Notes under the pieces: model-generated
What the model was told of the DNA's origin: nothing
Database searches by the model: none
Seen by the model: only the letters and a program-made list of their open reading frames with translations
Source: Bacteroidota bacterium
GTDB taxonomy: Bacteria > Bacteroidota > Bacteroidia > Chitinophagales > Saprospiraceae
Assembly (NCBI GenBank): GCA_003045895.1
Contig: PZPC01000006.1
Location: forward strand, 62,001 to 126,000
Reading direction: 5' to 3'
DNA length: 64,000 nucleotides
Program-made: the position numbers and the translations under genes
In this document: piece after piece, positions 10,498 through 56,407 of the stretch
Position numbering within the stretch: position 1 is the stretch's first letter
How the letters are laid out: every line of letters begins with the position of its first letter

Positions 10498-10555
10498 CCT
10501 GCTCAAGACACAAAATCGGGCGATGTCTACTTATCTCTCGATTTATTATGCCCTT

Positions 10556-10606: not shown

Positions 10607-10624
10607 CCCTACCACGCATAAACC

Positions 10625-10664: not shown

Positions 10665-10730
10665 AAGGTGTAAGCTGTTGGACGGCCCGGGGCTAGGCCG
10701 AAAAAAACTATCATTTAAACCAGGCGCACG

Positions 10731-14234: not shown

Positions 14235-14333
14235 AGTCCGAAAAAGTAGATAAGTAAATAGACTGAGAATAAAAATAGCATTAATTAAAACTGGTCTTTA
14301 AGAACTTAATCAAAAGAATATTTCTGTCAATTG

Positions 14334-39331: not shown

Positions 39332-39472
39332 CGGATTATATGTGCGACTAGCGATGTATTCTTCCAATCGTTTACACAAATACCCAACAAGGTGGCTTGT
39401 TTTACCCCTGGTTTCAGCTATTTCCGGGCCGCAGGCGCCGGATGGCGGCGAAACCGCTAACAAAAATTCCAA

Positions 39473-39488
39473 CCGTGTGCGCACACGG
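39473..39488. promoter_or_regulatory. 16-bp perfect palindrome, likely operator of the LacI-type regulator
   Basis: CCGTGTGCGCACACGG is an exact palindrome with a central CG-rich step, as in many LacI-family operators. It lies 15 bp upstream of the TACTTTTG -7 element, where the -33 element should be, and 52 bp before the deaminase gene. The LacI-type regulator is the second gene of the same operon, so autoregulation is the simplest reading. Confidence 0.6.
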
Positions 39489-39503
39489 CACACAAAAAAG
39501 ACC

Positions 39504-39511
39504 TACTTTTG
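39504..39511 (+). promoter_or_regulatory. -7 element of the amino-sugar operon
   Basis: TACTTTTG matches TAnnTTTG exactly, 29 nt before the deaminase ATG. No TTG is found at the -33 position, which is occupied by the palindrome. Confidence 0.6.
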
Positions 39512-39540
39512 TCTTATCCACTCACCAAACCCGGCCCTCC

Positions 39541-42569: not shown

Positions 42570-42610
42570 TCATCAGCTCTTTTCAAACCTTGTGCTTTGC
42601 CTCTGCTGCC

Positions 42611-42622
42611 TGACAAAAATCA
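42611..42622. promoter_or_regulatory. FNR/CRP-like half-conserved palindrome
   Basis: TGAC-AAAA-ATCA lies 75 bp before the ATG of the 256-residue protein gene. One arm has C instead of T compared with TGAT-N4-ATCA. On its own it is weak. It is listed because the same core recurs upstream of four other places in this region. Confidence 0.35.
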
Positions 42623-42697
42623 TTGGTGGTCTTAAGTTCTATCATCAAAAGAATTGTATAATTCCTTTAATTTTAAAAAATAAATACCCTATAAACG

Positions 42698-43468
42698 ATG
42701 AAGTATAAATCCAATGCGTCGTGGGCAAGGATTGTCCGTCAGGTTAGTTTGCTGTTATTGCTTGCTTTATTCTTATCCAACCAACAGTCACCCCAACATA
42801 TCCCCCCTTTTATCTTTCCGGAATTGGATCAGCCAGTCGTCAGTTTATGGTTGGCAGCAACAGCCAATGATTCGGCTCAAACGCGTGCACAACTCAAGGA
42901 AGTAAAGCGGCAGTGGCAAATTCACAAAGCAGATGTGGAAGACTTTCCATTAACTGTCTGTAATCCTTATTTGATTGGTGGCACGATCGATGCTTTATTG
43001 GTTCAGATGCAGCGCGCTCAGGCTGTACCCGATTACGATGAACTGACCGGATTGAGTTATCACTTCCTCTGGGAATTCAAAACTGTCCGCGCCTTTCATC
43101 GACAAAATTATTACCCTTTGGATGCGTGGTGGGATGTTTACAACCTCCATCAGGAAATTTCCTTTGCGACCCACGACCCCGAATTAGGACTGTTGGAATG
43201 GCAGGAATTGGAATGCATGTTTGATGAATTCGTCTGTCTGCTTGAGGAATACGAAGCGAAGGCAGAAGCCAATCTGACGCGGTATGCACCAAGGGTAGAT
43301 GAAGATGCCCATAAGGACGCCATGAACCGAATTTACGTCTGCATCAATGATTACAAGCAGGCTCTGACTACAGGCTACCGGGATCGTTTACTCACGCCTT
43401 GTGAGGAGATCGCAGCAGGATTGAAGCTAATCCTGACCTGCTATACCAAGGAAGGTGTAACCCTTTGA
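42698..43468 (+). CDS. Exported protein of unknown function
   Basis: I do not recognise this 256-residue protein. It has a hydrophobic N-terminal segment (about 14-27, QVSLLLLLALFLSN) that could be a signal peptide or anchor. A mostly alpha-helical, acidic mature part follows, with six cysteines (in TVCNP, ELECMF, FVCLL, IYVCIN, TPCEEI and LTCYT) and aromatic stretches such as YYPLDAWWDVYNLH. It is the first gene of the stress island and precedes hsp20 by 52 bp. A TATAAT-like stretch at 42657-42662 and an FNR-like half-conserved site lie upstream. Confidence 0.7.
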   Translation: MKYKSNASWARIVRQVSLLLLLALFLSNQQSPQHIPPFIFPELDQPVVSLWLAATANDSAQTRAQLKEVKRQWQIHKADVEDFPLTVCNPYLIGGTIDALLVQMQRAQAVPDYDELTGLSYHFLWEFKTVRAFHRQNYYPLDAWWDVYNLHQEISFATHDPELGLLEWQELECMFDEFVCLLEEYEAKAEANLTRYAPRVDEDAHKDAMNRIYVCINDYKQALTTGYRDRLLTPCEEIAAGLKLILTCYTKEGVTL

Positions 43469-43520
43469 AGTTTTGCGCTCGAGAAGCGTTGTTCCATATT
43501 TATAACCAAAAACCAAAGCT

Positions 43521-43958
43521 ATGTCTATTATCAAATGGAATGATCGGACTGCACTACCAACAGTCACCACCGTTTTCGACGATTTCTTTAGTGATGATCA
43601 AGGCTTTTTCAAAGTCTTATCCGCAAGCGAATCCGTTCCTGCCGCTAATATTGTTGAGAACGAAAAAAACTACACCCTTGAATTAGCCATTCCGGGTGTG
43701 TCGAAGAAAGACCTGAAAATTGAGGTCGACAACAATATGATTCGCATCAGTTCCGAAAAGGAGGAAAGTAGGGAAACCAGCGAAAAAAATTACACGCGTC
43801 GGGAGTATAGTTTTAATGCGTTCAGCCGTTCTTTCCGGCTACCCGACAATGTTGATCCCGAAAAAGTTGCTGCCAACTACAACAACGGAATTCTAACGGT
43901 GGAAATCACCAAAACGAAGCCGGGTAAGTCCGCGATGAAGACGATTCCCATATCCTAA
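43521..43958 (+). CDS. Hsp20/alpha-crystallin small heat-shock protein
   Basis: This 145-residue protein has a short N-terminal arm and an alpha-crystallin domain from about 40. Visible in it are NYTLELAIPGVSKKDLKIEV (about 50-69), the YTRREYSFNAFSRSF strand (about 92-106) and a late NNGILTVEI. These proteins hold unfolding proteins as ATP-independent chaperones. Its place in a cluster with universal stress proteins fits a stress or dormancy role. A terminator-like hairpin follows. Confidence 0.95.
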   Translation: MSIIKWNDRTALPTVTTVFDDFFSDDQGFFKVLSASESVPAANIVENEKNYTLELAIPGVSKKDLKIEVDNNMIRISSEKEESRETSEKNYTRREYSFNAFSRSFRLPDNVDPEKVAANYNNGILTVEITKTKPGKSAMKTIPIS

Positions 43959-43973
43959 ATCGGAGTGATTTAA

Positions 43974-44007
43974 CCTATCCGGGGCAAAACAACTTTCCCC
44001 GGATAGG
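43974..44007 (+). terminator. Hairpin after hsp20
   Basis: CCTATCCGGGG (43974-43984) and CCCCGGATAGG (43997-44007) form a perfect 11-bp stem with a 12-nt loop. The following AATTTGG has only a short T-run, so termination may be partial. The next ATG is 27 nt downstream. Confidence 0.6.
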
Positions 44008-44034
44008 AATTTGGCCCCAAATCCAATAGCCTAT

Positions 44035-45123
44035 ATGCTACGCTACCTACTTCTTTGCCTACTTGCGCTGCACGGTTTAATCCATTTACTGGGCTTTGTC
44101 AAGGCCTTTGCCATAGCTCCGGCAAATCAGCTTACAGCGACCATTAGCAAACCAATGGGTTTGCTCTGGTTAGTGGCAGCCGCCTTGCTGCTGGTTACTA
44201 CTTTTCTATTGATGCGCAGGAGTGGGCACTGGTTTTGGTGGGCTTTCCTAGCTATTGGTTTATCCCAGGTGCTCCTTATCCTGTACTGGCAAGAAACCAA
44301 ATTCGGCACTTTACCCAATCTTGTCCTCTTATTGACAGCCATTGTGGCGCTGAGCAATTGGCGCTTTGAATCGCGCTACCAACAAGATGTAGCAGCTAGC
44401 CTGCGGCGTACTGCCACAACAATAATGGATACAATAGGCGAACAAGATTTGGCCCATCTTCCACTGCCAGTGCAAGGGTACCTGCGCTACGTGGGGGTCG
44501 TTGGCCAACCCAAAGTGAACAACTTTCGTGCAACCTGGACCGGATTCATGCGCGAGAAAGGCAAAGATTGGTTTCCTTTTACGGCCGAACAATATAATTT
44601 CTGTGCGGAACCGGAACGTTTATTCTTTATGAAAGCAAAACTCAAAGGACTGTCCACTTATGGTTACCATGCTTACAGCGACGGAGAAGCCAGTATGTTG
44701 GTAAAAGTGTTGTCCTTGTTTCCAGTAGTGGATTTGCAGGAAAAAGAGCTCTTCAAGGCCGAGACGGTAACTTTCTTCAATGACCTATGCCTGCTTGCAC
44801 CCGCTGCGCTAATTGATAAAAATATTCAGTGGGAAACGATTGATCCCACTACCGTTCGCGCCTTCTTTAACAACCGGGACGTAACGGTTTCAGCTGTTCT
44901 TCATTTTAACGAGGAAGGCCAACTCATTAATTTTGTTTCGGATGACCGCCTGGAGGTGGCCAGCAAACAGGCTTTCCGGTTCTCCACCCCCTTGGCTAAC
45001 TACCGAAAATTTGGTAAATTCCAGTTGTTAGGTTATGGAGAAGCCAAATGGCACTATCCCGAGGGAGAATTTATTTACGGTAAGTTTTACCTACAAGACC
45101 TGACCTACAACATTGAACCATAA
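44035..45123 (+). CDS. Membrane protein of the DUF6544 type
   Basis: This 362-residue protein has about four N-terminal membrane segments (residues 1-115). A soluble domain follows with PVQGYLRYVGVVGQPKV, RLFFMKAKLKGLSTYGYHAY and TVTFFNDLCLLAPAALID. These strings fit a conserved bacterial family that I recall as DUF6544, but the family name is uncertain. Its function is unknown. It starts at the ATG opening a hydrophobic segment. The next gene begins directly after its stop codon (TAAATG), so the two are coupled. Confidence 0.65.
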   Translation: MLRYLLLCLLALHGLIHLLGFVKAFAIAPANQLTATISKPMGLLWLVAAALLLVTTFLLMRRSGHWFWWAFLAIGLSQVLLILYWQETKFGTLPNLVLLLTAIVALSNWRFESRYQQDVAASLRRTATTIMDTIGEQDLAHLPLPVQGYLRYVGVVGQPKVNNFRATWTGFMREKGKDWFPFTAEQYNFCAEPERLFFMKAKLKGLSTYGYHAYSDGEASMLVKVLSLFPVVDLQEKELFKAETVTFFNDLCLLAPAALIDKNIQWETIDPTTVRAFFNNRDVTVSAVLHFNEEGQLINFVSDDRLEVASKQAFRFSTPLANYRKFGKFQLLGYGEAKWHYPEGEFIYGKFYLQDLTYNIEP

Positions 45124-45714
45124 ATGAAGCAAAAAATAATGGGGCAAAAAACCATTTGGATCCTGGGAATTGTAGCTTTCGTTTGGGGCATGCTCACCTT
45201 GTACGTGGAGAAAGCAGGGCCCAAACAAGCTGTTTCCTTCGGAAACCCCAATGCCCGGAAGCACGTATTGATCGTTTACGACCCTGATCCTTTGTACAAT
45301 CTGGACGAGCAAGTCTGCCAAAATTTGGCGCAAGGGCTGGCCAAAGCCAATTGTTACGTTGAGGTACAATCCGTGGCTGTTGCCCGCGAGGAAATGAACA
45401 AGACCTTTGACCTCTATGTGTTTTGTGCCAATACGTACAATTGGTCACCCGATTGGGTATTAGTAGGTTACATTAATCGGCACCCCCATCTGGAGAACCA
45501 ACCGGTGGTAGCCATTACCCTGGGCGGAGGTTCTACCGCGCGATCTCAACGCCTGTTGGAAAAAAAGATCCTACGAAAAAAGGCAAAACTTTTAGCCATT
45601 AAATCCTTGTGGTTGTGGCGGCCAAACGATGAAAACCGAATGACCGAAAGCAACGTTAAGGTAGCCGTTTCGATCGCCCATGACTGGGGCATAGCCTTGG
45701 CAACCGAATTATAA
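45124..45714 (+). CDS. Membrane-anchored flavodoxin-fold-like protein
   Basis: This 196-residue protein has one N-terminal membrane segment (about 9-27). A soluble domain follows that starts RKHVLIVYDPDPLYNLDEQVCQNLA and later has TFDLYVFCANTYNW and VVAITLGGG. The alternation suggests a flavodoxin-like alpha/beta fold, but no sure FMN-binding loop is seen. It begins right after the DUF6544-type gene, so the pair likely acts together. A role in redox chemistry at the membrane is speculation. Confidence 0.5.
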   Translation: MKQKIMGQKTIWILGIVAFVWGMLTLYVEKAGPKQAVSFGNPNARKHVLIVYDPDPLYNLDEQVCQNLAQGLAKANCYVEVQSVAVAREEMNKTFDLYVFCANTYNWSPDWVLVGYINRHPHLENQPVVAITLGGGSTARSQRLLEKKILRKKAKLLAIKSLWLWRPNDENRMTESNVKVAVSIAHDWGIALATEL

Positions 45715-45747
45715 TGCCCCTTGTTTTTGTATCATTAACCAATTGCA

Positions 45748-46812
45748 ATGCAATACCATTCATTAACCCGGCTTTTATTTTCCAGGATGAGTCAGGGGGT
45801 TATTGGGATTTTATTCATCCTGGTTTTCGCTGGAAGTTGTCGGCATTCTACGCCGGCCAGTAAGGAGGTACCCCTCCCCAAAGGATTGTCCGTCAACACC
45901 GAAAAAGTAACCGCCCCTGTCCCTATCCCTTATCCGGTAACGCACGACGTACCCATTCGCACCTACTTCGAATTCATGGACAGCCTGTTGGCACATTTCG
46001 ACAGTGTGCTGAATTACCCCCTTAACGAGCATTTGCTTGTACGCTATAACCCCTGGCTGATTGATACCCTGGCACATACGGACTATTACTACCTGATGGA
46101 GCAGGGTATCTTCAACGAAGATCCGCAGGGTTTACTGGCTTTGCGACAAGGAGAAATCCTCTTGATCCCTGATTCGTTGCAATCGGATTCTCTCTGGCGA
46201 CTGATGGACCAAACCAGCCTGGACATCAATATCCCCGCTTTTCAGTTGCGAATTCTGGAAGGCGAAAAGGTGCGGTATACTTTCCCCATCAGGGTGGGGC
46301 AAAACAAGAAAAAATACCTGGCCATGGCTGGCCGGGTAGTCGATTTGCGAACGCAAACCGGTGTCGGTTACATCTGGCGCATTAACAAGAATCCGGTCTT
46401 CATTAACCCCAAAAACAACCATCGCTACGAAGTTACCCGCCGCGATGATGGGAAAGTCACGAAACTCCCCCGTATCCCCTGGCTAGATCCCGAGTTGGAC
46501 GGACACCGCTTCGGGCAGTTGATCCATCCGACCACCAATCCGGAGACGCTTGGCAAAGCTTATTCCAATGGCTGTATAGGCATGCGCGAAGGAGATATGT
46601 GGCGCGTCTATTACCATGCGCCGATTGGTACCCGAATCGTTTTTCGTTACGATCTGGAAGAAATTAACGCCCAGGGTGATACCATCCGTTATAAAAACAT
46701 TTATCCAGGCTATGAACACCCGCGCAACCGGGCGGCCATCCTGGCGGCTGCCGCTGGCGTTTTGCCAGCTGGCCAAGACCCTACCATGGCCACCTTATGT
46801 GATTGCCGCTAG
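45748..46812 (+). CDS. Lipoprotein L,D-transpeptidase (YkuD family)
   Basis: This 354-residue protein has a lipoprotein signal whose lipobox is FAGSC (Cys31). The YkuD domain (about 160-310) carries the catalytic SNGCIGMR motif with Cys276 and an upstream LIHPTT His. The usual HG in the motif is NG here, a common variant. L,D-transpeptidases make 3-3 peptidoglycan crosslinks or attach proteins to the wall, and they become important in slow growth. The stress-cluster setting fits that. A second ATG at residue 14 is an alternative start. Confidence 0.88.
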   Translation: MQYHSLTRLLFSRMSQGVIGILFILVFAGSCRHSTPASKEVPLPKGLSVNTEKVTAPVPIPYPVTHDVPIRTYFEFMDSLLAHFDSVLNYPLNEHLLVRYNPWLIDTLAHTDYYYLMEQGIFNEDPQGLLALRQGEILLIPDSLQSDSLWRLMDQTSLDINIPAFQLRILEGEKVRYTFPIRVGQNKKKYLAMAGRVVDLRTQTGVGYIWRINKNPVFINPKNNHRYEVTRRDDGKVTKLPRIPWLDPELDGHRFGQLIHPTTNPETLGKAYSNGCIGMREGDMWRVYYHAPIGTRIVFRYDLEEINAQGDTIRYKNIYPGYEHPRNRAAILAAAAGVLPAGQDPTMATLCDCR

Positions 46813-46870
46813 CGGTGATACCCACTGGTGAACCCTGATTCGATTCCATTACCCGTTAAACCTAAGCCCT

Positions 46871-47674
46871 ATGAAAATTTTATGTCCTACCGATTTTTCT
46901 AATTGTTCCGTTAACGCCTGCCGCTGGGCTGCCCAATTCCTCGACACCCTGGGCGGAGGACAATTGGAACTCTTGAACTGTCTCAACATTGTCAGTCGAT
47001 CCGAAATGTTTATCAAACTGGATGACATTTACCAGGAACGTGCAGAAGAGGACTTAAGCGAATTGATCAAAACCCTCCAGGAAATTAGCTCTGCGGTGGT
47101 TATTACCGCCAAGGTGGTTAAAGCTGCTCCGAAATATTTCCTACCTGACTACCTGAAACACAACGATTTCGATTTCGTTGTTACCGGCACCAAAGGGCTG
47201 ACTGCCCTGAAAGACATGACGGTAGGTAGCGTAACGGCTCACCTGATGGACCGATCGGAAGTTCCGGTTTTGGCTATTCCCTCCAACTCGGTGTATGCCC
47301 CGGTAAAACAATTGGTAATGGGCGTGGATAACCAAACCCAAGTAAAAAAAGGCGCGTTGGCACCATTGGTAAAATTGCTTGAACGCTCAGCGGCACAGTT
47401 ACAAGTGGTTCATACCTTGAATGCGGAGGAATCGGCCAGCGAACTCCATCCGGATATCGCAGCTGAATTGGTGGGGGTAAACTATGAATTTTCAAATATT
47501 TCGGCAAACAACGCCATCGCCCAGGCGCTCACCCAATTTTGCTACAGCAAGGAGGCCGACATCCTGGTATTGCTTCATCGGCAGAGGCACTGGTGGGAAC
47601 GGTTGTTCTACAACAGCTTCACCAAATCGTCCCTTTTTGAGATCGAACTGCCCTTTTTAATTATTTCCGTTTAA
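46871..47674 (+). CDS. Tandem-domain universal stress protein (267 residues)
   Basis: Two UspA domains sit in tandem. The first starts KILCPTDFSNCSVNACRWAA and has the nucleotide-binding pattern G-x2-G-x9-G-S (GTKGLTALKDMTVGS, about 117-131). The second (about 140-267) starts VKQLVMGVDNQ and lacks that pattern. USPs of this sort bind ATP and increase survival under starvation or low oxygen. The stop codon overlaps that of the convergent CBS gene in one TTAA. It is one of three USPs in this island. Confidence 0.9.
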   Translation: MKILCPTDFSNCSVNACRWAAQFLDTLGGGQLELLNCLNIVSRSEMFIKLDDIYQERAEEDLSELIKTLQEISSAVVITAKVVKAAPKYFLPDYLKHNDFDFVVTGTKGLTALKDMTVGSVTAHLMDRSEVPVLAIPSNSVYAPVKQLVMGVDNQTQVKKGALAPLVKLLERSAAQLQVVHTLNAEESASELHPDIAAELVGVNYEFSNISANNAIAQALTQFCYSKEADILVLLHRQRHWWERLFYNSFTKSSLFEIELPFLIISV

Positions 47675-48096
47675 AGGACTGGCAGCCCCAATAAATCAAA
47701 TACAGATACAATTCCTACCAACTGCTTTTTAGCGTTGACCACGGGTAGGGCGTGAAAACGATTTTCGCGAAAGATATCAACTGCTGAAGCAATGGTATCT
47801 TCAGGAGAACGGGTGACGACGGGCTTGCTCATCACTTCGCTGACCAAAAGGGAGCGAAAAATATCCTTATTGATGCGCTCTGCATCCTTCAGGCGAAAGA
47901 TAGTAAAGGTATCCTGTACCAGGCAATAATCTGTTTTACTGATCATCCCAACTACTTTCCCATCATCGTCTACGACCGGAAGGTGGTGGATAGGATTGTT
48001 CCTAAATATTTCATCCACCCGCAGTAAAGTATCGTGCGGCTTTACCGTATTGACTTGGGTGCGCATAACCTGACCAATGGAAGTCGTATGTATCAT
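47671..48096 (-). CDS. CBS-pair protein
   Basis: This 141-residue protein is a single CBS pair: VMRTQVNTVKPHDTLLRV and HLPVVDDDGKVVGMISKTD in the first motif, VMSKPVVTRSPEDTIASAVDIF and ALPVVNAKKQLVGIVSVFDLLG in the second. CBS pairs bind adenine nucleotides and act as energy sensors. A stand-alone pair next to USP genes parallels the hypoxic-response CBS proteins of actinobacteria. That is an analogy, not proof. No FNR-like site is seen directly upstream. Confidence 0.92.
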   Translation of the reverse strand: MIHTTSIGQVMRTQVNTVKPHDTLLRVDEIFRNNPIHHLPVVDDDGKVVGMISKTDYCLVQDTFTIFRLKDAERINKDIFRSLLVSEVMSKPVVTRSPEDTIASAVDIFRENRFHALPVVNAKKQLVGIVSVFDLLGLPVL

Positions 48097-48197
48097 CTTT
48101 CTGATTTTTGCTAACCCGGATTAGATAATCGACCGAAAACAAAGCGATCACTTAAATCCTGGTCCGTTGATTGCCCCCACTGCCGGGTGGCATAAAT

Positions 48198-48229
48198 TAG
48201 CGCATGATGGAGAACCCGAACATGCGCTA
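48198..48229 (-). terminator. Hairpin after the GerW-type gene
   Basis: TAGCGCATG and CATGCGCTA form a perfect 9-bp stem around a 14-nt loop, about 30 bp beyond the GerW-type stop codon on the minus strand. The T-run lies before rather than after the stem, so it may be a processing or regulatory hairpin instead. Confidence 0.45.
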
Positions 48230-48255
48230 AATAAAAAAACTAAGTGAAAAAAATC

Positions 48256-48627
48256 TCAATTGGAAGCAGACTTGCCTTCTTTTTTATTTTCCAGGTATTT
48301 ACTCAATAAATCCGGAACTTTTTCAAAAGCTGCTACTAATCCCCGGTTGGTTTTGGTACTTACGAAAGCGATTTCGCTTTCCCGCGAAACCAGAAACCCA
48401 ATGGGTTCGATACCCATTCCCGCCCCTACCGCACCTCCTTCGCCATGGCCGGTTTTGGGTGCTTCTCCCTCGCCACCGCCACTACCGAAACCCATCCCCA
48501 CCCGAATGACAGGAATACAGGAATATTCTCCCAACGTAAATGGGGAACCGATAACGGTTTCTGTTTTGGCTTCGTTTTGGATGAAAGTTGTGACGCGTTC
48601 CAGTAATTTTTCAAATTGCATTTCCAT
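48256..48627 (-). CDS. GerW/YtfJ-family protein
   Basis: Starting at MEMQFEKLLERV, this 123-residue protein has the GerW pattern: ETVIGSPFTLGEYSCIPVIRVGMGFGSGGGEG and a later GIEPIGFLVSRESEIAFVS. In Bacillus the protein (YtfJ) is linked to spore germination, but many non-sporulating bacteria have it and its basic role is unknown. Here it follows a YtfI-like gene, the same pair as in Bacillus. Met3 or an upstream ATG (48651) are alternative starts. Confidence 0.88.
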   Translation of the reverse strand: MEMQFEKLLERVTTFIQNEAKTETVIGSPFTLGEYSCIPVIRVGMGFGSGGGEGEAPKTGHGEGGAVGAGMGIEPIGFLVSRESEIAFVSTKTNRGLVAAFEKVPDLLSKYLENKKEGKSASN

Positions 48628-48659
48628 AATTAAAGGGATTAAGATTAACAATTAAAGTA

Positions 48660-49169
48660 TTACAGTAGAACCGCAACCAGCAACCGGTAAGGTCGATTTT
48701 TAACAATGCATACTATTTCTTCTTTGCCGCAGTAGTTTATTGTCAATTTCCGCTTTTCGTTGTTCAAAAAAAAGAAAAGTGGAAACAGCAAACTATTCCA
48801 AATAAAATCGTCCGTATCCAGATTAACCCGTAGCACTTTCACCTCAAAACTATTGAGGATTCGCCGCATTTTCCGCCACCAGTTGACCTTTCGCTTCTTT
48901 CGTTTTTTCCGCACTTTTGACTGGTCTTTTCGATTGGAATCGGCTGGTTTTCGGTAGTCTAGGGGGTAAAAATCTTTTTTCCAAAAAAAGACGCGCAACT
49001 GAACCACCACTTCTTCCTCTATCATTCGGAACCGGATGTTGGCGATAGAACGCCACGCTATCAAATAACGATCCGTTCGGGTATCAATATGCAACTCAAT
49101 CGGCGCGATCAATAGCCAGGCTAAAAACCCTATAATAACCAGTAAAACACTTGCGACAAATAGCATCAT
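48660..49169 (-). CDS. DUF2953/YtfI-like membrane protein
   Basis: This 169-residue protein has one N-terminal membrane segment (about 4-22). It continues with IELHIDTRTDRYLIAWRSIANIRF, a very basic stretch (KVRKKRKKRK, about 88-97), and a beta-rich end. It lies just upstream of the GerW-type gene, with a 32-bp gap. The order and layout match the ytfI-ytfJ pair. The family assignment is tentative because the sequence is divergent. Its function is unknown. Confidence 0.6.
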   Translation of the reverse strand: MMLFVASVLLVIIGFLAWLLIAPIELHIDTRTDRYLIAWRSIANIRFRMIEEEVVVQLRVFFWKKDFYPLDYRKPADSNRKDQSKVRKKRKKRKVNWWRKMRRILNSFEVKVLRVNLDTDDFIWNSLLFPLFFFLNNEKRKLTINYCGKEEIVCIVKNRPYRLLVAVLL

Positions 49170-49284
49170 AGCAACGTTTACAGTACTTGTTATTCAGCCT
49201 GTTCAGCCTTTAATAATAGTAGATTAATAGTATAAAATTACGGATAAATTTCAATAAAATTTAGTGGAAACATCAATCCGGAAA

Positions 49285-49298
49285 TTGATTTTTATCAT
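49285..49298. promoter_or_regulatory. FNR-like site between the YtfI-like and AhpD-like genes
   Basis: TTGAT-TTTT-ATCAT matches nine of ten bases of TTGAT-N4-ATCAA. It lies 65 bp before the AhpD-like ATG and 115 bp from the divergent YtfI-like start, so it could serve either gene. It is the best-matching site of the five. Confidence 0.55.
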
Positions 49299-49363
49299 CG
49301 CTTTCTCTCGGCAAAAAATAGAATATTGAAACATTAAAATATTGAATCAAACCCGAGTTCAGC

Positions 49364-49726
49364 ATGAAAAACTATCCCGAACATTACAACCAAATTCTTG
49401 CGTTAATGCAGGAAGTAGGTCATGATTTGCCTTCTACGATGAGTGCTTTTGGTCGGTTGCACCGGGCGGGAGTCAGTCCTGGTGAGTTATCTCCCCAAAC
49501 GAAGGAACTCATTGCGCTTGCTATTGCCGTTGTTTTGCGTTGCGATAGCTGCGTAGCCTTTCATGTGCACGATACCCTCAAAGCCGGGGCCAGCCACGGG
49601 GCCATTATGGAAGCCTTGAGTGTGGCGATTATGATGGGTGGTGGTCCGGCCGTTATGTATGCGTGTGAAGCCTTGGCGGCGTTGAAACAGTTTGAGGAGG
49701 AGAAAAAAATCAAAATCCCAGCCTGA
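49364..49726 (+). CDS. AhpD-like carboxymuconolactone decarboxylase family protein
   Basis: This 120-residue protein is a single CMD domain with the redox motif E-x11-C-x2-C-x3-H in ELIALAIAVVLRCDSCVAFH (about 46-65). Members of the AhpD side of the family act as thiol peroxidase partners. A 9-bp direct repeat (AATATTGAA at 49322-49330 and 49338-49346) precedes the start. The HAD-ATPase fusion gene follows after 38 bp on the same strand. Confidence 0.9.
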   Translation: MKNYPEHYNQILALMQEVGHDLPSTMSAFGRLHRAGVSPGELSPQTKELIALAIAVVLRCDSCVAFHVHDTLKAGASHGAIMEALSVAIMMGGGPAVMYACEALAALKQFEEEKKIKIPA

Positions 49727-49764
49727 TCCTCCCGTATTGACTCCCTATTAATAAATCCGTTCAT

Positions 49765-51540
49765 ATGCATCTAAATATTTTCGCGCTGGATTTAGACGGC
49801 ACCTTGGCGGAAAATGACCAGGTGGCACCAGCTACCTGGAAAATCTTACGAAAGGCCAAAAGCAAGGGCTTTCGTTTTATCCTGGTCACCGGACGCAGAT
49901 TAGAAGAGTTGGCAGCAATAGGTCCTTTTGAAACCTATTTCGAAGCTATTGTTGCTGAAAACGGGGCTGTTATTCATTTTGTCGCCAGTGATACGGTTAT
50001 TATGCCTTTTGGATCGGTTGCGGCAGACATCATTCAGGAACTAGGGACCTTAAATATTCCGGTGACCCGCGGCATGGCTATTGCGGCCACCTGGAAACCA
50101 CACGATCAGCAGATTTTAAACGTCTTAGCAGCAAGAGGATTTCCCGTCACCCTGGAATACAATCGGGAAGCCGTCATGTTGCTTCCGCCGGGGGCCACAA
50201 AAGGGACGGGGCTGCTGGCGGCGCTGCAAGAGTTAGGTTATTCTTATCACAATGTCCTCGCAATTGGTGATGCTGAAAATGATCGCAGTCTGTTTTCTAC
50301 GGCAGAATACGCCGTTGCCGTAGCAAATGCCGATCCAGGGATAAAAAAAACAACAGATCTCACGCTTGCCTTACCCAACGGTGCTGGTATTCAACAATTC
50401 ATGGATGGCCTCATCAATAATAAAAACACCCTCCACTCGACTCGCTCCAAGCACCTGATTACCCTTGGAAAAAAACGCGACCAAAGCCCTTTTCAGCTCA
50501 GCACATTTCATTTCATCGACGGTAATTTAGGTGTTTTTGGCGCCAGTGGCAGTGGTAAATCCTGGCTCTCCGGCTTGTTGGCGGAAGCCCTGTTGCTAAA
50601 AGATTATCAAATCTGCATCATTGATCCGGAAGGAGATCACCGCAATATTAAAAAATTCCCGCACACGATTTTGCTGGGTGGCACGGCGGTACCACCGCCA
50701 GCGTTGGATCAGGTAGCCACCCTTTTGGAGTATTCCACCCTCAACATTATTCTCGATTTGTCTTTGTATACCAAAGACCAACAGATAGTCTACGTTCAGG
50801 ATCTGCTTCAGCTTTTTTGTTCACTACGCAACCGCAGAGGAAAACCACACTGGATTTTGCTGGAAGAGGCGCACTACTTCTGTTCCAGTAACGACGACCA
50901 GATTACCTTGTTGCTGCACCGGTTGATGGAGCAAGGCGGATTGAGCCTGGTGTCCTATCGCCCGAGTCAGTTGGCGCCTGATCTATTGAAAAAACTGGAT
51001 CAATGGTTATTTACCTACACAAAAAGCCAGGAAGAGTTGGAGGCGATTAAAACCATGCTGCCGGAATCTGCTATCCAAGAACACGACTTTCCGGCGTGTT
51101 TATTTTTACTGGGCAACCAACAAGCCTATTATTGTTCCAAAAACAAACCGGATACGCCCCTTGTCGCCACTACCTTAATTGAATTCAGCAATCTTAGCCG
51201 GATGGTTCCCCATGTGCGGCATTTACACAAATACCTGCATGCCCCGCTGGCTCGTGACAAACAATTTTTTTTTAAAAATGATGGTCAGGATAAGAAGTTG
51301 TTGGTAGCAGCAAACCTCCATGATTTCAGCGAAATGCTACCGCAACTACCCATGAGCGTTCTTAAATACCACCTCTATCGGGGTGATTTTAAAAATTGGC
51401 TGCAGCATAGCGTACACGATCACGAGTTGGCCCGTCTGGTACAAAAAATAACCAATCGGCAACTCCCCGATGAATTACTAAAAAGTAGCCTGACAGAAAC
51501 GGTAGCGATCCGGATTGCGGCATTAGAAAGCCTACTTTAA
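49765..51540 (+). CDS. Fusion of a HAD-IIB (Cof-type) phosphatase with a HerA/VirB4-like P-loop ATPase
   Basis: This 591-residue protein has two parts. Residues 1 to about 215 are a HAD-IIB phosphatase: DLDGT (9-13), VTGRR, and AIGDAENDRSLF near 171-182. From about 235 a P-loop ATPase follows: Walker A GASGSGKS (259-266), IIDPEGDH, and Walker B-like WILLEEAH (363-370). About 215 residues beyond have no recognised motif. The ATPase recalls HerA/DUF853-type proteins. Substrates of either half are unknown. It follows the AhpD-like gene and overlaps the convergent USP gene by 9 bp. Confidence 0.75.
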   Translation: MHLNIFALDLDGTLAENDQVAPATWKILRKAKSKGFRFILVTGRRLEELAAIGPFETYFEAIVAENGAVIHFVASDTVIMPFGSVAADIIQELGTLNIPVTRGMAIAATWKPHDQQILNVLAARGFPVTLEYNREAVMLLPPGATKGTGLLAALQELGYSYHNVLAIGDAENDRSLFSTAEYAVAVANADPGIKKTTDLTLALPNGAGIQQFMDGLINNKNTLHSTRSKHLITLGKKRDQSPFQLSTFHFIDGNLGVFGASGSGKSWLSGLLAEALLLKDYQICIIDPEGDHRNIKKFPHTILLGGTAVPPPALDQVATLLEYSTLNIILDLSLYTKDQQIVYVQDLLQLFCSLRNRRGKPHWILLEEAHYFCSSNDDQITLLLHRLMEQGGLSLVSYRPSQLAPDLLKKLDQWLFTYTKSQEELEAIKTMLPESAIQEHDFPACLFLLGNQQAYYCSKNKPDTPLVATTLIEFSNLSRMVPHVRHLHKYLHAPLARDKQFFFKNDGQDKKLLVAANLHDFSEMLPQLPMSVLKYHLYRGDFKNWLQHSVHDHELARLVQKITNRQLPDELLKSSLTETVAIRIAALESLL

Positions 51541-52386
51541 TATCAACAGTGGCGTTTTCGACAGAAAAGCGAGTTGGCGGGTCATCGATTGGTGGAGGAT
51601 ACGGGCAGATACATTGCGTGGTGGCCGGTGCATGACCAATAAATTTATCGACCAGCTTTCCGCAAATTCGGCTAATTGCTCCGCAATATTTTGGTTATTG
51701 AGTTGATGAAAAGTCATTTTTTTCCCCAGGGGGCAATCGGCAAAGAAATGTTGCAGTTCCTCCATACGGATAGGCTCCGTCTCCTCCTCATGTTCTGCGA
51801 CTACATGAACGATTCGATAAACAGGGTTAAAGGGTTGTAATACCCGGCTGGCTTGCCAGATGTGGTAAGGGTCGGCAGTGGACAGATTGGCGGCATAGGC
51901 CACGTTTTGAAGTTTATCCTGTTTAACTTGTTCCGGGATTACCATTACCGGACAAGGTGCTTTACGGATAACAGTTGTTGTCACGCTACCCAGCAATCGT
52001 TCCAGGACGCTGTGTTCACCCTGGGTTCCCATAACGATCAAGTCTATTTCGTGTTGCTCCGCGTATTCGCTGATGAGCCGGGCAGGAACGCCGATCTCTA
52101 CTTTAGCAATAACTTCGGGTGGGTTTTGTAAATCGTGGGCCGCCTGCACGCGCACCATGCCCTGGTCCACCATATCTTGCATAACCAACTTGGCCACCTC
52201 TACTTTTTTCTCCGTCACAACCAGCGACACCCCCGGCAAGTCCATGGCATCAGGTTCAGGATAGACCAGGTGAAGCAGGGTAATCTGTGCCTGGTATTGA
52301 TCGGCAAACCACAATAAATAGCGAAAAGCATTGTTGGCCGTTTCAGAAAAATCGGTAGGAAAAAGAATTTTCTTGATGCTGTGCAT
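51532..52386 (-). CDS. Tandem-domain universal stress protein (284 residues)
   Basis: The first UspA domain starts KKILFPTDFSETANNAFRYL and has the G-x2-G-x9-G-S pattern (GTQGEHSVLERLLGS, about 119-133). The second domain (about 160-284) is divergent. It is the last gene of a three-gene minus-strand operon with the ATP-binding kinase and the APH-like kinase, with only 5 bp to the latter. Its end overlaps the HAD-ATPase gene tail-to-tail. Confidence 0.9.
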   Translation of the reverse strand: MHSIKKILFPTDFSETANNAFRYLLWFADQYQAQITLLHLVYPEPDAMDLPGVSLVVTEKKVEVAKLVMQDMVDQGMVRVQAAHDLQNPPEVIAKVEIGVPARLISEYAEQHEIDLIVMGTQGEHSVLERLLGSVTTTVIRKAPCPVMVIPEQVKQDKLQNVAYAANLSTADPYHIWQASRVLQPFNPVYRIVHVVAEHEEETEPIRMEELQHFFADCPLGKKMTFHQLNNQNIAEQLAEFAESWSINLLVMHRPPRNVSARILHQSMTRQLAFLSKTPLLILK

Positions 52387-52391
52387 AGGAA

Positions 52392-53435
52392 CTACTTTAC
52401 GGTTTTCAGCGATCTTTTGTTAAATGGAAAATGGTTCAAATAATTGGTACGGTAGTGCTGCATCAGCCAGAAATAGGTTTCCAAACGCTGCAAATGAAAG
52501 GTACGGGTAGCATCATCGGTCGCCTGTTCTGCTTTTAAGGCATTTACTTTGAGGCGAATATTGGCCCGGTAGAATTTGTAATAATGGAAAAGCAAATGAT
52601 CTGCTTCTTGCAGAAAAACAGGATAAATAGCAGTATAGTGTTGTAAAAATGGGGTATTGAGTTCCGGACGCCGGTAGGCATCTATATCCATACAAAAGAA
52701 AGCCAACTCATCAATGATATCTACTTCGCGGAACTGGTCGTTAAATTCGACACAATCAAAAATAACGGGTTGGTCGAGCAGGAAAATATTGCTGGTGTGC
52801 AAATCTCCGTGTCCATCGATAAAAAACCCTTCTTCGTACCGTTCCCTGAGCCGGTAAGCATGGGTACGCAGAAAGTGTTGGGAAAATGTGACCCAATTGT
52901 CCAACTGTCCGCCCGCTGCGGCACCCAACTGCTGGACTACGGTGTTTTTTACGGCTAAAATATCCGCAAAAGCAACATGGATTGCCGTAGAACTGGGCGG
53001 CATTTTTACGCGATCGGCCTGGGTGTGAAAACGGGTTAATTGTTCCGCCAGTTGATGCATCTGCGGCACCTTCACTTCGTCTTTTTCCAGGAGCCGGTTC
53101 ATGAGTCGGTTTTCATCCATTCGTTTCATGACGACAGCATAGTCTATTACCTCGCCTACCTCGCCACCAATCTTTAGGCCACCTGGTGTTTGCCGAATGG
53201 GGTCTACTCCCAGATACATCCCTTCCGTTAGCCTGCGATTCAGCAACACTTCCCGTTCGCAATAATACTTGCGTGCTGCCAGCGTAGAAAAATTCAGAAA
53301 GGAAAACCGAACCGGTTTTTTGATTTTGTACCCGCGATCAGGGGTTAGTAAAACCCATGAAATGTGGGTTTCCACGAGTTCTACACTCCCCATATCCATG
53401 GTTTGTAAAAGCTGCTGAATGCTTGTTTTATCCAT
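52392..53435 (-). CDS. APH-like phosphotransferase
   Basis: The ATG at 53435 overlaps the upstream kinase stop codon (ATGGATAA) and gives 347 residues. The APH-fold core has the catalytic HGDLHTSNIFL segment and the DCVEFND acid motif. Such domains are annotated as aminoglycoside phosphotransferases, but this group is unlikely to be for resistance. In many bacteria it is fused to an ATP-binding kinase domain in one protein of about 500 residues. Here the two domains are separate overlapping genes. The substrate is unknown. Confidence 0.85.
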   Translation of the reverse strand: MDKTSIQQLLQTMDMGSVELVETHISWVLLTPDRGYKIKKPVRFSFLNFSTLAARKYYCEREVLLNRRLTEGMYLGVDPIRQTPGGLKIGGEVGEVIDYAVVMKRMDENRLMNRLLEKDEVKVPQMHQLAEQLTRFHTQADRVKMPPSSTAIHVAFADILAVKNTVVQQLGAAAGGQLDNWVTFSQHFLRTHAYRLRERYEEGFFIDGHGDLHTSNIFLLDQPVIFDCVEFNDQFREVDIIDELAFFCMDIDAYRRPELNTPFLQHYTAIYPVFLQEADHLLFHYYKFYRANIRLKVNALKAEQATDDATRTFHLQRLETYFWLMQHYRTNYLNHFPFNKRSLKTVK

Positions 53436-53955
53436 GAAAGGTGGGGATTTCAAAAAGATTCAGGTAATTTTTAGCTGCTCCTACCATTTTTCCAATACAA
53501 GCATGGTCAGATGCTATGGCCAGATGCGGTACATCCAGGGGTTCGTAGTCGGCCTTCAACTTGAGATAAACATCGAAATCAGCTTCACTATCTGGCCGGT
53601 GGTAACTCACGCGCTGACGAATAACTTCTTCATCGGCCAGAAGTTCAATCCAGACAATCGGCACATGGTACTGCTTCGCCAACTGTTCGTAAGGATCCCG
53701 CAACAACTTGGTATAGAAAGTAGCATCAACAATTACACTTTCATCACGTTCCAGGCAAGCTTCGGCTTCCCGCAATAAATTGGCATAAACAACCGACTTG
53801 GAAGTAGGACTATAATTACCCCACCGGCCGATATTTTTTCGAATGATATCACTGTTCAGGTGTTTGATATCAAGCGCGGCCGACAAAGCACGGGCAAAGG
53901 TAGTTTTGCCCGAACCGGGTAATCCGGTAATGAGGATTAATTTTGGGCTTTTCAT
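53428..53955 (-). CDS. Small P-loop kinase, partner of the APH-like gene
   Basis: This 175-residue protein starts MKSPKLILITGLPGSGKTT with a P-loop at 11-18. It continues with LNSDIIRKNIGRW and VIVDATFY, as in zeta-toxin/gluconate-kinase-type AAA_33 kinases. It corresponds to the C-terminal domain of bifunctional APH/ATP-binding proteins but is encoded upstream of the APH-like gene and overlaps it by 8 bp. An in-frame start eight codons upstream is possible. Confidence 0.88.
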   Translation of the reverse strand: MKSPKLILITGLPGSGKTTFARALSAALDIKHLNSDIIRKNIGRWGNYSPTSKSVVYANLLREAEACLERDESVIVDATFYTKLLRDPYEQLAKQYHVPIVWIELLADEEVIRQRVSYHRPDSEADFDVYLKLKADYEPLDVPHLAIASDHACIGKMVGAAKNYLNLFEIPTFHG

Positions 53956-54005
53956 GGTTTGCAATTGGATTTCTTGCAAAATCGCGGTTTACAACCCGAA
54001 AATCA

Positions 54006-54019
54006 ATGACATAAATCAA
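54006..54019. promoter_or_regulatory. FNR-like site upstream of the kinase-USP operon
   Basis: ATGAC-ATAA-ATCAA matches eight of ten bases of TTGAT-N4-ATCAA. It lies 50 bp before the minus-strand kinase ATG. A separate CTGACA/TGTCAG inverted repeat begins 2 bp further on. Confidence 0.45.
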
Positions 54020-54064
54020 CCTGACAGATGATCTTGTCAGAATTTTAGACCGAGTGTTGATATG

Positions 54065-54076
54065 TGATTAAAATCA
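54065..54076. promoter_or_regulatory. FNR/CRP-like palindrome upstream of the 222-residue lipoprotein gene
   Basis: TGAT-TAAA-ATCA fits the core exactly. With its flanks (TGTGATTAAAATCACC) it also fits the CRP half-sites TGTGA-N6-TCACA in nine of ten bases. It lies 97 bp before the lipoprotein ATG, in the divergent region with the kinase operon. Confidence 0.5.
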
Positions 54077-54173
54077 CCTATCTATTTGTATTGATTCTCT
54101 GACATTTTTTGTACTTAGTCAATACTTTGGTATCCAATGGATATTGATTTTGATTTTACCAAATAAGCTACCA

Positions 54174-54842
54174 ATGAAAAATATGATTCTTTGGCTCCTA
54201 TTAGCCAATACCTTCCTGTTGACGTGTGACCCCCCAATTGCTTTCACCAAGCCTCAGCCCGATGTCTACCCGGCCGCTACTGCCTTTGAACCAGCCTACC
54301 AGGGTTCCTATTTTTGTACGGGCGATTCGGCCATTTTACACGTGACGGACCAGGGTATCTACAAAGAAAAAACAATTGAATTTGAAACGACGCTGGAAGA
54401 AATAAAAGCCACCAAAGGCGTTCACCTGGAGGGTGACCAGTTGTACTTTGACCGGTCAGCCGAACCTATTGACCTCATTTATTTGGATGATAATGTGGTA
54501 AGTGGGCAGTTGGTACTTAGAGACACCCTCTTTTGGTTGCGGTATGGGCAAGTTCTCAAATACTACAAAGGCCACCAGGTACTCAACAAAAAACTACCCA
54601 ATAAGCAATGGGCGGTACAGGTACTCAGCATGGATGAAGACGGAAATTTGACCTTATTTACCACCAAACTACCCGAGGACCTGGCGGAACTGGAGGCCAT
54701 CACCCCGGTTACCGACATCTCCACCGAGGAGCATACCCAATACCTGATTGCCCCCAATGTCGCCGAGTTCAGAAAATTGCTCACGACCCAACTCATCTTT
54801 GAAGCATGCGATTATTTTGAGCGATTGCCCGGCACGTTGTAG
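54174..54842 (+). CDS. Lipoprotein of unknown function
   Basis: This 222-residue protein starts at an ATG opening a lipoprotein signal (MKNMILWLLLANTFLLTC, Cys18). The mature part is beta-rich and acidic, with SYFCTGDSAILHV and repeated short strands. I do not recognise the family. It sits in the stress island with an FNR/CRP-like palindrome upstream and a TACTTTGG near-consensus -7 sequence about 40 nt before the start. A perfect hairpin follows. Confidence 0.65.
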   Translation: MKNMILWLLLANTFLLTCDPPIAFTKPQPDVYPAATAFEPAYQGSYFCTGDSAILHVTDQGIYKEKTIEFETTLEEIKATKGVHLEGDQLYFDRSAEPIDLIYLDDNVVSGQLVLRDTLFWLRYGQVLKYYKGHQVLNKKLPNKQWAVQVLSMDEDGNLTLFTTKLPEDLAELEAITPVTDISTEEHTQYLIAPNVAEFRKLLTTQLIFEACDYFERLPGTL

Positions 54843-54902
54843 CGATTGTACTGTCCCAGACCCCGAAAATCTTTCCCAACAACAAGGGCCAAACGCTACA
54901 GG

Positions 54903-54936
54903 CCAGGCCTGCAAGACAATGTACTTGCAGGCCTGG
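54903..54936. terminator. Bidirectional hairpin between convergent genes
   Basis: CCAGGCCTGCAAG and CTTGCAGGCCTGG form a perfect 13-bp stem with an 8-nt loop. It lies between the stop codons of the lipoprotein and the 314-residue USP. No good T-run is present on either side. Confidence 0.6.
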
Positions 54937-54985
54937 GCGTAAAATGATCATTGGTTAGCGGTTGGGAACAGCCAAGGTGGCGGCT

Positions 54986-55930
54986 CTATTTCACCACCAG
55001 CGTTGGGATCGTATTGTTAATGGAAAGCAAGTGATCCGTTACGCTTCCCATCAGGAGTAGTTCTACCTTTGAATGCCCTTTGGCTCCCATGATTACCAGA
55101 TCGAATTCGTTTTCCACTGCGTAATCCATGATGTAATGAGCCGTAGCGGGGAAAGTTTTAGGAATCAAAATCTTCTTGATGTATTCCCGACCTTCAGGGG
55201 CATAAGAAGATAGAAAGAGGTCAAAAGCCTCCATGCGGTCACCTTCTACCATTTGTTGGAATTCTTCTGCTGTTTTCGATAGCCGAAATGGTGACAAATT
55301 AGGCGTGTCATAAACATTCAGACAAATAATCTTTACCGGTTCAGCTAGTTGCTTATTGATAGCCAGCGCCTGTTGTAAGGCCCGGGCCGAATGTTCCGAA
55401 AAGTCGATAGGGACTAAGATACTACGCAACCTATTCCAGGATGCCTCGGGAACCACCAATGCATTAACGGTTGCCTTGCGCACCATATTCTTCGCCAAAA
55501 TAGCATGACTTCCAGCTAGTTTCTTCTTCCCGATTACCACCAGGTCGGCCTCTATTTCCGCAGCTTCCGCCAACAACTCTTCCAAGGGATCGCCAGTGCG
55601 AGCCAGATAAGTGGTATTTTTAATATGGGCTTTTTTTACCAAAAGCTGGATATCTCCACCCAGCTGTTCCGTTACTTCTTCTTTGATATGTTGCTGCTCC
55701 ACCAGCAATTCCAACTCATCTGCACTTCCCGTTGTGAAAAGATCAAAACGGGGGACTACGTGCAGAAAACAGGCTGCGTGGACAGGAACCTGGCTCCCTA
55801 AAAAATCGAGGTATTTCAACAAGTGCTCGTCGGTATCATTTAATGCCAAACCTACCAAAGCTTGTTTGACCTCAAACTTGGCAACAACCATTTCTTCCGA
55901 TGGTTGGGTACTGTTTTTTGACTCTTTCAT
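54986..55930 (-). CDS. Tandem-domain universal stress protein (314 residues)
   Basis: Two UspA domains: the first (about 20-160) is divergent. The second (about 165-314) starts LRSILVPIDFSEHSARALQQAL and carries the G-x2-G-x9-G-S nucleotide-binding pattern (GAKGHSKVELLLMGS, about 285-299). The other two USPs of this island have the pattern in their first domain instead. The gene lies 22 bp downstream of the 119-residue protein gene and shares its probable promoter. Confidence 0.9.
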   Translation of the reverse strand: MKESKNSTQPSEEMVVAKFEVKQALVGLALNDTDEHLLKYLDFLGSQVPVHAACFLHVVPRFDLFTTGSADELELLVEQQHIKEEVTEQLGGDIQLLVKKAHIKNTTYLARTGDPLEELLAEAAEIEADLVVIGKKKLAGSHAILAKNMVRKATVNALVVPEASWNRLRSILVPIDFSEHSARALQQALAINKQLAEPVKIICLNVYDTPNLSPFRLSKTAEEFQQMVEGDRMEAFDLFLSSYAPEGREYIKKILIPKTFPATAHYIMDYAVENEFDLVIMGAKGHSKVELLLMGSVTDHLLSINNTIPTLVVK

Positions 55931-55952
55931 TTAGGATGTTTTTAGGCTCGGT

Positions 55953-56312
55953 TTATGCTTGAATGGAATGTAACCCTTTCCGGTTTTGGACCTCCAGGGT
56001 CCAATCATCGGTGATGGTGGTTTGCAACCAAAGGTCATTGGAACGCCGAAATATCTGTACGTGCAGGCCAAAGCGGGATTCCATCTCGGCCTCAAAATCA
56101 GCCACCGTCTTTGTAGGCCGCAACTCCACGTCACCCGCCTGTAATTCCGGGTTAATTTTAGCAAGGGGCAAACTGACCTCGTAGGTCAACTTCCGGGGAG
56201 ACCCCTGGTGATCGAGGTGGCCTTTTTTATAAAAAGCGATCTTAAGCCCCGGAAAAATGGCGTGGAACTCTTCTTGTATTTCGGCGATGGTTCGGTTTGG
56301 ACTAATTTTCAT
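55953..56312 (-). CDS. Small protein of unknown function, first gene of a USP operon
   Basis: This 119-residue soluble protein is unrecognised. It starts MKISPNRTIAEIQEEFHAIFPGL and has a similar second half (TVADFEAEMESRFGLHVQIF). The two halves look like an internal duplication of a short alpha/beta unit (compare TIAEIQEEFHAIFPGLKIAFYK with the latter). No signal peptide or membrane segment is present. A USP gene follows and an FNR-like palindrome lies 69 bp upstream. Confidence 0.7.
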   Translation of the reverse strand: MKISPNRTIAEIQEEFHAIFPGLKIAFYKKGHLDHQGSPRKLTYEVSLPLAKINPELQAGDVELRPTKTVADFEAEMESRFGLHVQIFRRSNDLWLQTTITDDWTLEVQNRKGLHSIQA

Positions 56313-56381
56313 GGCTCATTTTTATGCTGCAAATTAGCCGCTTAGACCTTCGGATTCGTTGACGATATTCAACTCCAAAGG

Positions 56382-56393
56382 TGATTTACATCA
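56382..56393. promoter_or_regulatory. FNR-like palindrome upstream of the 119-residue gene and USP
   Basis: TGAT-TTAC-ATCA fits the core exactly, with G and G as flanking bases. On the minus strand a TAATTTG element at 56330-56336 is a plausible -7 sequence, which would place the palindrome about 60 nt upstream of the transcript start, a usual class I activator position. Confidence 0.5.
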
Positions 56394-56407
56394 GCCCGAT
56401 CGTTCAG

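Follow-up and report, generated by a model that had tools for sequence, protein, structure and literature searches.

The stretch of DNA analysed here (the window) comprises 64,000 nucleotides of contig PZPC01000006.1 from a Saprospiraceae genome (assembly GCA_003045895.1), and includes, between positions 42570 and 56400, an island of stress-related genes in whose intergenic regions a short palindrome, TGA[CT]N4[AG]TCA, recurs. This palindrome is probably the operator of a low-oxygen regulon, its predicted reader being a response regulator that joins a receiver to a Crp-type protein and that would be partnered by a FixL-type kinase. The island stands out by its base composition (46.4% GC versus 51.0 and 53.6% in the flanks, with a sharp drop at both ends). 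The gene types named in the original prediction were borne out by Pfam for Hsp20, three universal stress proteins (Usp), a CBS pair, YtfJ/GerW, an AhpD-like CMD protein, a HAD domain with a HerA-like ATPase and AAA_33, but not for the proteins of 256, 353 (kinase-like), 119 and 232 (lipoprotein-like) amino acids (aa), which have no Pfam family at E 0.001.

The exact form TGATN4ATCA occurs at 49286, 54065 and 56382, and variants with one C at 42611 and 54007; according to our own gene calls all five sites are intergenic, as had been predicted. That list was correct, but incomplete. Further exact copies are located at 24195, which is coding by the same calls, and at 43738, within the open reading frame (ORF) of Hsp20 (43521-43958), the latter being taken as a chance match; a further degenerate match, at 40349, is included in ORF 39397-41496. 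The window contains five exact copies versus 0.73 expected and eight degenerate ones versus 2.63, and none of 100 dinucleotide shuffles reached at least five or at least eight, respectively. Genome-wide, there are 153 exact sites in 5.57 Mb, that is, one per 36 kb, which is above the rate suggested by the shuffles. At the genome rate, five exact sites in 64 kb have a Poisson P of about 0.03 and four in the 13.8-kb island one of about 6e-4, the limits of the island having been chosen with knowledge of the sites. The argument that such a core is expected once per 64 kb by chance is thus only modest evidence.

A Crp/Fnr gene was sought in the genome with HTH_Crp_2, and five proteins were obtained, one of them fused to a receiver. 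This fusion, a 348-aa protein encoded on contig C8, outside the window, consists of Response_reg, cNMP_binding and HTH_Crp_2 domains. The gene directly before it encodes a kinase with PAS, HisKA and HATPase_c domains. The best PDB matches of its PAS domain are FixL (E about 1e-27), the stretches EHDGY (HD-Y) and IIGIGR (GIGR) being aligned; we take the histidine of the former to be the heme ligand, as in FixL. Against the FixL model of NCBIfam, the PAS part gives E 1.2e-39, but with 136 of 850 bits it stays far below the whole-protein cut-off. The domain matches identify the protein as a FixL-type kinase, with a predicted heme-PAS domain and a histidine kinase; it would pair with the adjacent regulator, heme and oxygen presumably providing the signal. 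Between the kinase-fusion operon and a divergent CBS gene lies the site TGACATTAATCA. Three residues are identical in 21 of 21 aligned fusions, namely Asp52 in the receiver and, in the recognition helix, Glu313 and Arg317; a Glu/Arg pair has a role in the recognition helix of the Crp/Fnr superfamily, whose features (cNMP_binding, HTH_Crp_2 and this pair) are all found in the fusion. No Fe-S cysteine set is conserved in these 21 sequences, receiver Cys51 being the sole column with more than five cysteines. In the putative cAMP pocket, we read only Gly209 and Ala224 as invariant, with no conserved Arg/Ser pair in the columns examined. The Crp protein of contig C31 lies near a Usp gene and near genes that look, by eye, like those of a membrane transporter and a FAD oxidoreductase (L070, 8600-13564), and is perhaps a sulfur-related regulator.

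We analysed 20 kb around the fusion gene in each of 20 genomes, these loci having been selected by the presence of the gene and irrespective of sites. At these regulator loci TGAYN4RTCA occurs 72 times in 44.7 kb of intergenic DNA versus 24 times in 355.3 kb of coding DNA. The intergenic count of TGA-Nk-TCA peaks at k = 6 (89 occurrences), the other values of k between 0 and 14 giving 9 to 26. Of the 19 intergenic pairs that lie no more than 80 bp apart, 14 have a spacing of exactly 22 bp. The base preceding TGA is A in 40% of the cases and T in 17%; an outer T is not conserved. In flavobacteria, TAnnTTTG is the -7 box of sigma-A promoters, according to PMC9723704. At the regulator loci the box TANNTTTG follows the sites at +23 nine times, at +45 six times and elsewhere once (15 of 16; 69 unique sites, 98 site-gene pairs); as the two sites of a pair have their box in common, the number of distinct boxes at +23/+45 is ten. 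Taking these distances together with the usual promoter numbering, in which a class II site is centred at about -41, the sites would be centred near -41 and near -63. Among the neighbours of the fusion gene, which were named by eye from the starts of their proteins, are ccoNO, a CcoI-type ATPase and HemN, as well as Usp and CBS genes. For replication, 13 of the 80 matches listed were full-length, all titled Bacteroidota and among them Chitinophaga filiformis, Jiulongibacter sediminis, Mucilaginibacter psychrotolerans and Sphingobacterium corticibacter; these loci contain 36 sites in 20.7 kb of intergenic DNA versus 15 in 124.2 kb of coding DNA, and the box is found at 23 or 45 in 8 of 14 cases.

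Across 395 genomes of the phylum, exact tandems 22 bp apart are present in 51, and the reversed control in one. A full-length fusion, defined by E <=1e-60 (our own limit, at a gap in the ranking between about 4e-64 and 5e-40), is encoded in 56 genomes, every one of them in the class of the window. Tandems occur in 38 of the 56 genomes with the fusion (37 of 55 when that of the window is excluded) versus 13 of the 339 without it; within the class, the figures are 38 of 56 versus 6 of 42.

The window's own genome points to a set of candidate target genes. The AT-rich form TGACNWWAATCA has 31 sites genome-wide, its reversed control 3; 29 could be classified, 20 as intergenic (two being window sites) and 9 as coding, in a genome in which gene calls leave 14-19% of the bases intergenic and an AT-rich pattern somewhat favours intergenic DNA anyway. 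For TGATWWWWATCA there are 13 sites versus none for the reversed control, 11 of them intergenic (two again in the window). The intergenic/coding splits given here come from a simple in-house gene caller, which places the start of the 256-aa gene late and overlooked Usp frames on contigs C156 and C31. At four promoters (L111, L118, L121 and L128, on contigs C29, C76, C91 and C138) sites TGACTTTAATCA share the flank TTGACTTTAATCA, and possibly represent a different regulatory element that overlaps the consensus TGAYN4RTCA; they were retained in the 20 of 29.

Beside intergenic sites are genes for Usp (C16, C90) and CBS proteins (C8, C90), the FixL-like kinase operon (C8) and nosZ (TIGR04246, E 2e-193) with a divergent Rrf2 gene, as well as those for a [NiFe] hydrogenase small subunit, a type III SQR, a DnaJ protein, a baeRF-family protein, a phosphoribosyltransferase, a START-domain protein and 2-oxoglutarate dehydrogenase E1. 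Thirteen Usp matches correspond to nine proteins by position, six of them outside the window, one of these on C31; of the five examined for sites, the genes on C90 and C16 have exact sites 75 and 49 bp upstream and the frame on C156 one about 170 bp before it, while that on C25 has one-mismatch sites only and that on C58 none among the sites listed. The promoter shared by hemN and the gene of a CcoI-type ATPase (C16) carries a tandem of the kind a Crp-type activator of cbb3-oxidase genes would use, TGACAAAAGTCA and, 22 bp on, TGATTTAAGGCA with one mismatch; it stands upstream of a ccoNO-Q-P-G-H-like cluster, ccoNO itself having a one-mismatch site only. The other heme-copper oxidase cluster (C45), which in our reading is of the aa3 type, shows neither exact nor one-mismatch sites ahead of its genes at 3848-14292; one exact site of that stretch lies upstream of a separate 275-aa gene. 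Gene names in the oxidase clusters beyond family matches were assigned by eye. Genes of microaerobic respiration seem to be targets of this regulator-operator system in many Bacteroidota as well.

To rank sites by their promoter context we used a composite score, hand-weighted and not trained, which takes into account the downstream site, an optional site 22 bp upstream and a box at 22-24 nt. In the window, the pair 56360/56382 ranks first (23.6) and the pair 42633/42611 second (22.6), and none of 200 block shuffles reaches 22.6 (Table 1). The promoters of the 256-aa/Hsp20 and 119-aa/Usp genes are hence strong predicted members of the regulon; sites 49286, 54007 and 54065 are plausible ones.

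Table 1. Genes and predicted regulatory elements of the island, in window coordinates.
Feature	Position	Strand	Remarks
Upstream putative operator TGACAAAAATCA, 256-aa/Hsp20 promoter	42611..42622	+	near -63 in model; score 22.6
Degenerate downstream putative operator TAAGTTCTATCA	42633..42644	+	near -41, at exactly 22 bp from 42611; two mismatches in left half, none in right half
-7 box-like TAATTTTA	42668..42675	+	23 nt past downstream operator; one mismatch to TANNTTTG
256-aa protein	42698..43468	+	no Pfam or NCBIfam family
Hsp20 small heat-shock protein	43521..43958	+	Pfam
Usp protein, 267 aa	46871..47674	+	no site directly upstream
Stand-alone CBS pair protein	47671..48096	-	Pfam
YtfJ/GerW-family protein	48256..48651	-	Pfam; start from ORF list
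169-aa protein	48660..49169	-	no Pfam family
-7 box-like TAAATTTT	49256..49263	-	22 nt past site 49286 read on - strand
Putative operator TGATTTTTATCA	49286..49297	.	between 169-aa/YtfJ side (-) and AhpD/HAD-HerA (+)
AhpD-like CMD-family protein	49364..49726	+	Pfam
HAD (HAD-IIB) hydrolase + HerA/DUF87-like ATPase fusion	49765..51540	+	Pfam
Usp protein, 284 aa	51532..52386	-	Pfam
353-aa protein, kinase-like in the original prediction	52392..53453	-	no Pfam or NCBIfam family
AAA_33 ATP-binding protein	53428..53979	-	Pfam
Putative operator TGACATAAATCA	54007..54018	.	between AAA/kinase-like/Usp genes (-) and lipoprotein-like gene (+)
Putative operator TGATTAAAATCA, flanks GTG..CAC	54065..54076	.	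intergenic region of the 54007 site
232-aa lipoprotein-like protein	54144..54842	+	no Pfam family at E 0.001
Tandem Usp protein, 314 aa	54986..55930	-	Pfam
119-aa protein, unnamed family	55953..56312	-	no Pfam or NCBIfam model
-7 box-like TAATTTGC	56329..56336	-	starts 23 nt past downstream operator; TTTG one base nearer than TANNTTTG
Downstream putative operator TGAATATCGTCA	56360..56371	-	near -41; one mismatch; spacing to 56382 exactly 22 bp
Upstream putative operator TGATGTAAATCA (read on -), 119-aa/Usp promoter	56382..56393	-	near -63; top composite score of the window, 23.6

Relatives of 10 of 21 tested window proteins are found at the 20 regulator loci (Usp at 8-9 loci, the 119-aa protein at 4, CBS at 3, Hsp20 at 3 and the others at 1); the remaining 11, including the 256-aa, YtfJ, HAD-HerA and kinase-like proteins, have none there. 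The 119-aa family lies beside the receiver-Crp gene at L195, L196, L199 and L203, and is also present at L218 and L220, often with an operator upstream; a fold model from 3 sequences has a mean pLDDT (predicted local distance difference test) of 81.2, and its best PDB match has E 0.25, none being at or below 0.001. A relative of the 232-aa protein, at L196 (18338-19018), is also beside the receiver-Crp gene and has a site 49 bp upstream. The HAD-HerA fusion has no full-length relative among 59 relatives, G018 giving a weak partial match only. Footprinting with it was fruitless: 64 of the 395 genomes match, our own included, the others with partial and distant matches, and a search of genome contigs gave none. 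The AT-richness of the island, together with the lack of a full-length relative of HAD-HerA, fits acquisition. On contig C123, a 313-aa protein (L216, 9713-10651) that resembles by eye the 353-aa kinase-like protein of the window lies near two operator-bearing promoters, a putative second stress cluster.

Several observations weigh against the proposed regulon, those on the motif being the following. In a 283-kb background (the first 20 kb of 20 contigs) all 14 matches to TGAYN4RTCA are coding. In stretches of the own genome, chosen in part for containing sites, there are 23 matches in 129 kb of intergenic DNA versus 55 in 679 kb of coding DNA, a weakly informative excess of about 2.2-fold; the next best of the 24 letter orders gives 14 intergenic matches. 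As to the concern that the motif might be equally frequent in coding DNA, at the regulator loci it is about 24-fold denser in intergenic DNA, in the own genome only by the 2.2-fold just given. With 153 exact copies genome-wide, the bare motif is weakly informative, and we rejected its count as proof: the 12-mer is too common. By itself it discriminates poorly, whereas promoter context discriminates well. The layout also has its exceptions. In other own stretches (L079-L084, 120 kb) the composite score reached at least 16 three times, in one case exceeding 22, and the Usp loci L065 and L069, which have exact sites, show no score of at least 17; it follows that the layout is not entirely specific, and that it is not a requirement either. 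Of the five flagged sites, three do not show it in full: 49286 scores 17.1 on the minus strand (YtfJ side), a tie with the coding match 24195 (17.1), and 15.5 on the plus strand, while 54007 and 54065, at about 13, are at shuffle level. Conservation upstream of relatives, which the original prediction had asked for, is seen for the lipoprotein (1 of 1), CBS (4 of 8 among the matches listed) and 119-aa (2 of 4) genes, but not for Hsp20 at the regulator loci (0 of 3). Could the island sites be short AT-rich intergenic palindromes that arose by chance and are unrelated to the regulon? The window P of about 0.03 at the genome rate and the low scores of 49286, 54007 and 54065 are in line with this. 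We nevertheless consider it quite improbable: the two high-scoring promoters of the window have both operators and the box in register, at scores that no shuffle reaches, and no composite score of at least 16 was found in the 283-kb background, though three were in the other own stretches.

The points that concern the reader of the motif are of a different kind. By our own reading, the gene immediately ahead of the fusion encodes a PAS kinase in 15 of the 20 loci, and a clear heme stretch IIGIGREV is present in only 4 of these 15 kinases (L188, L205, L206 and L207), so that heme-based oxygen sensing may hold for part of the fusion family only. None of four close pairs in the replication set has the 22-bp spacing. 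The Fisher values for the association of tandem and fusion, 4e-28 in the phylum and 1e-7 within the class, both ignore relatedness; 18 of the 56 fusion genomes lack an exact tandem, and among the 13 genomes that carry one without a full-length fusion, G327, G362 and G439 have four each. As these three genomes contain stand-alone Crp relatives with 35-40% identity to the Crp part, and as the helix of the paralogue on C150, SREAVSRML, has by eye its Glu and Arg at the spacing of the fusion, a stand-alone Crp/Fnr protein (that of C150 first, or that of C31) or several paralogues might read the motif, the fusion controlling part of it or none. We regard this as unlikely. Among the 64 tandems listed, from 24 fusion genomes, 17 are no more than 15 kb away from a fusion gene where 0.42 are expected (in 11 of the 24 genomes), and the operon of the fusion itself carries a site, both of which speak against a paralogue; by eye, moreover, the helix of the C31 protein lacks the Glu, and those of C141 and C147 lack both Glu and Arg.

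The receiver-Crp system resembles the rhizobial FixL-FixJ-FixK cascade in its FixL-type heme-PAS kinase, its Crp-type terminal activator, and cbb3-oxidase genes and hemN as targets. FixJ consists of a receiver and a LuxR-type output, and FixK is a stand-alone Crp protein, whereas here one fusion takes the place of both, promoters are of the TAnnTTTG type and operators are frequently paired at 22 bp. Membership in that system was rejected because the regulator adjacent to the kinase has a Crp-type and not a LuxR/GerE-type output; the Bacteroidota system would nonetheless work like FixL-FixK. With FNR and Anr/Dnr of Proteobacteria it shares the TGA-N6-TCA core and anaerobic, denitrification and Usp targets. 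The FNR site is TTGATN4ATCAA; in contrast, the base outside TGA is here not a conserved T, the fusion lacks a conserved Fe-S cysteine set, and the signal would enter through the receiver domain. E. coli CRP belongs to the same effector and HTH domain family and has its class II position near -41, but has no N-terminal receiver; in the stretch of the fusions taken for the cAMP pocket, only Gly209 and Ala224 are invariant by our reading. The gene types of the island (Usp, Hsp20, CBS) recall the mycobacterial DosR regulon, as the original prediction had pointed out, and so does the logic of a heme-sensor two-component system. Control of the island by a DosR-like system, with a receiver and a LuxR-type output, is still highly improbable: DosR has such an output and another operator, whereas the candidate regulator has a Crp-type output and the flagged motif a TGA-N6-TCA core.

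According to the model that we propose, when oxygen leaves the heme the kinase would phosphorylate Asp52 of the receiver. A dimer of the Crp part would then occupy the DNA near -41, in many cases joined by another one that sits exactly 22 bp further upstream, near -63, and RNA polymerase would be activated, rather than repressed, at the TAnnTTTG -7 box. A single receiver-Crp protein would in this way do the jobs of rhizobial FixJ and FixK. Its targets would comprise its own operon, cbb3-oxidase biogenesis, hemN, nosZ, [NiFe] hydrogenase, SQR and many Usp and CBS genes, and the island of the window would be one outpost of the regulon, connected through at least two promoters. The original proposal of a low-oxygen regulon under a Crp/Fnr-type factor agrees with these targets (hemN/ccoI, nosZ, [NiFe] hydrogenase, SQR, Usp, CBS) and with a Crp-type candidate reader. 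Its addition that no two-component system is involved is not supported: the candidate is a response regulator beside a FixL-type kinase, with receiver and Crp in one protein. The most probable driver of the regulon is a two-component system in which the response regulator and the Crp-type factor are one and the same.

No published description of a receiver-Crp fusion with FixL, or of the motif, was found in the searched text of the literature, including PMC4999443, PMC8510549 and PMC9723704, subscription papers and preprints lying mostly outside the search. On balance, we lean towards an apparently undescribed and widespread oxygen switch of Bacteroidota, in which a FixL-like kinase and a receiver-Crp fusion, acting through paired -41/-63 operators and TAnnTTTG promoters, would set microaerobic respiration together with a large Usp/CBS quiescence programme, accessory islands being recruited by acquiring its promoters. 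A flavobacterial transcriptome shows strong induction of the cbb3 oxidase under oxygen limitation (PMC9723704); the available main text of that paper does not contain the words Crp, Fnr or response regulator. A candidate regulator, an operator, a promoter geometry and a list of targets make the sensing of low oxygen, and the response to it, directly testable in these Bacteroidota. They also suggest what orphan families of Usp, CBS and small proteins may do, and bear on the control of nosZ, and with it of nitrous oxide reduction, in Bacteroidota.

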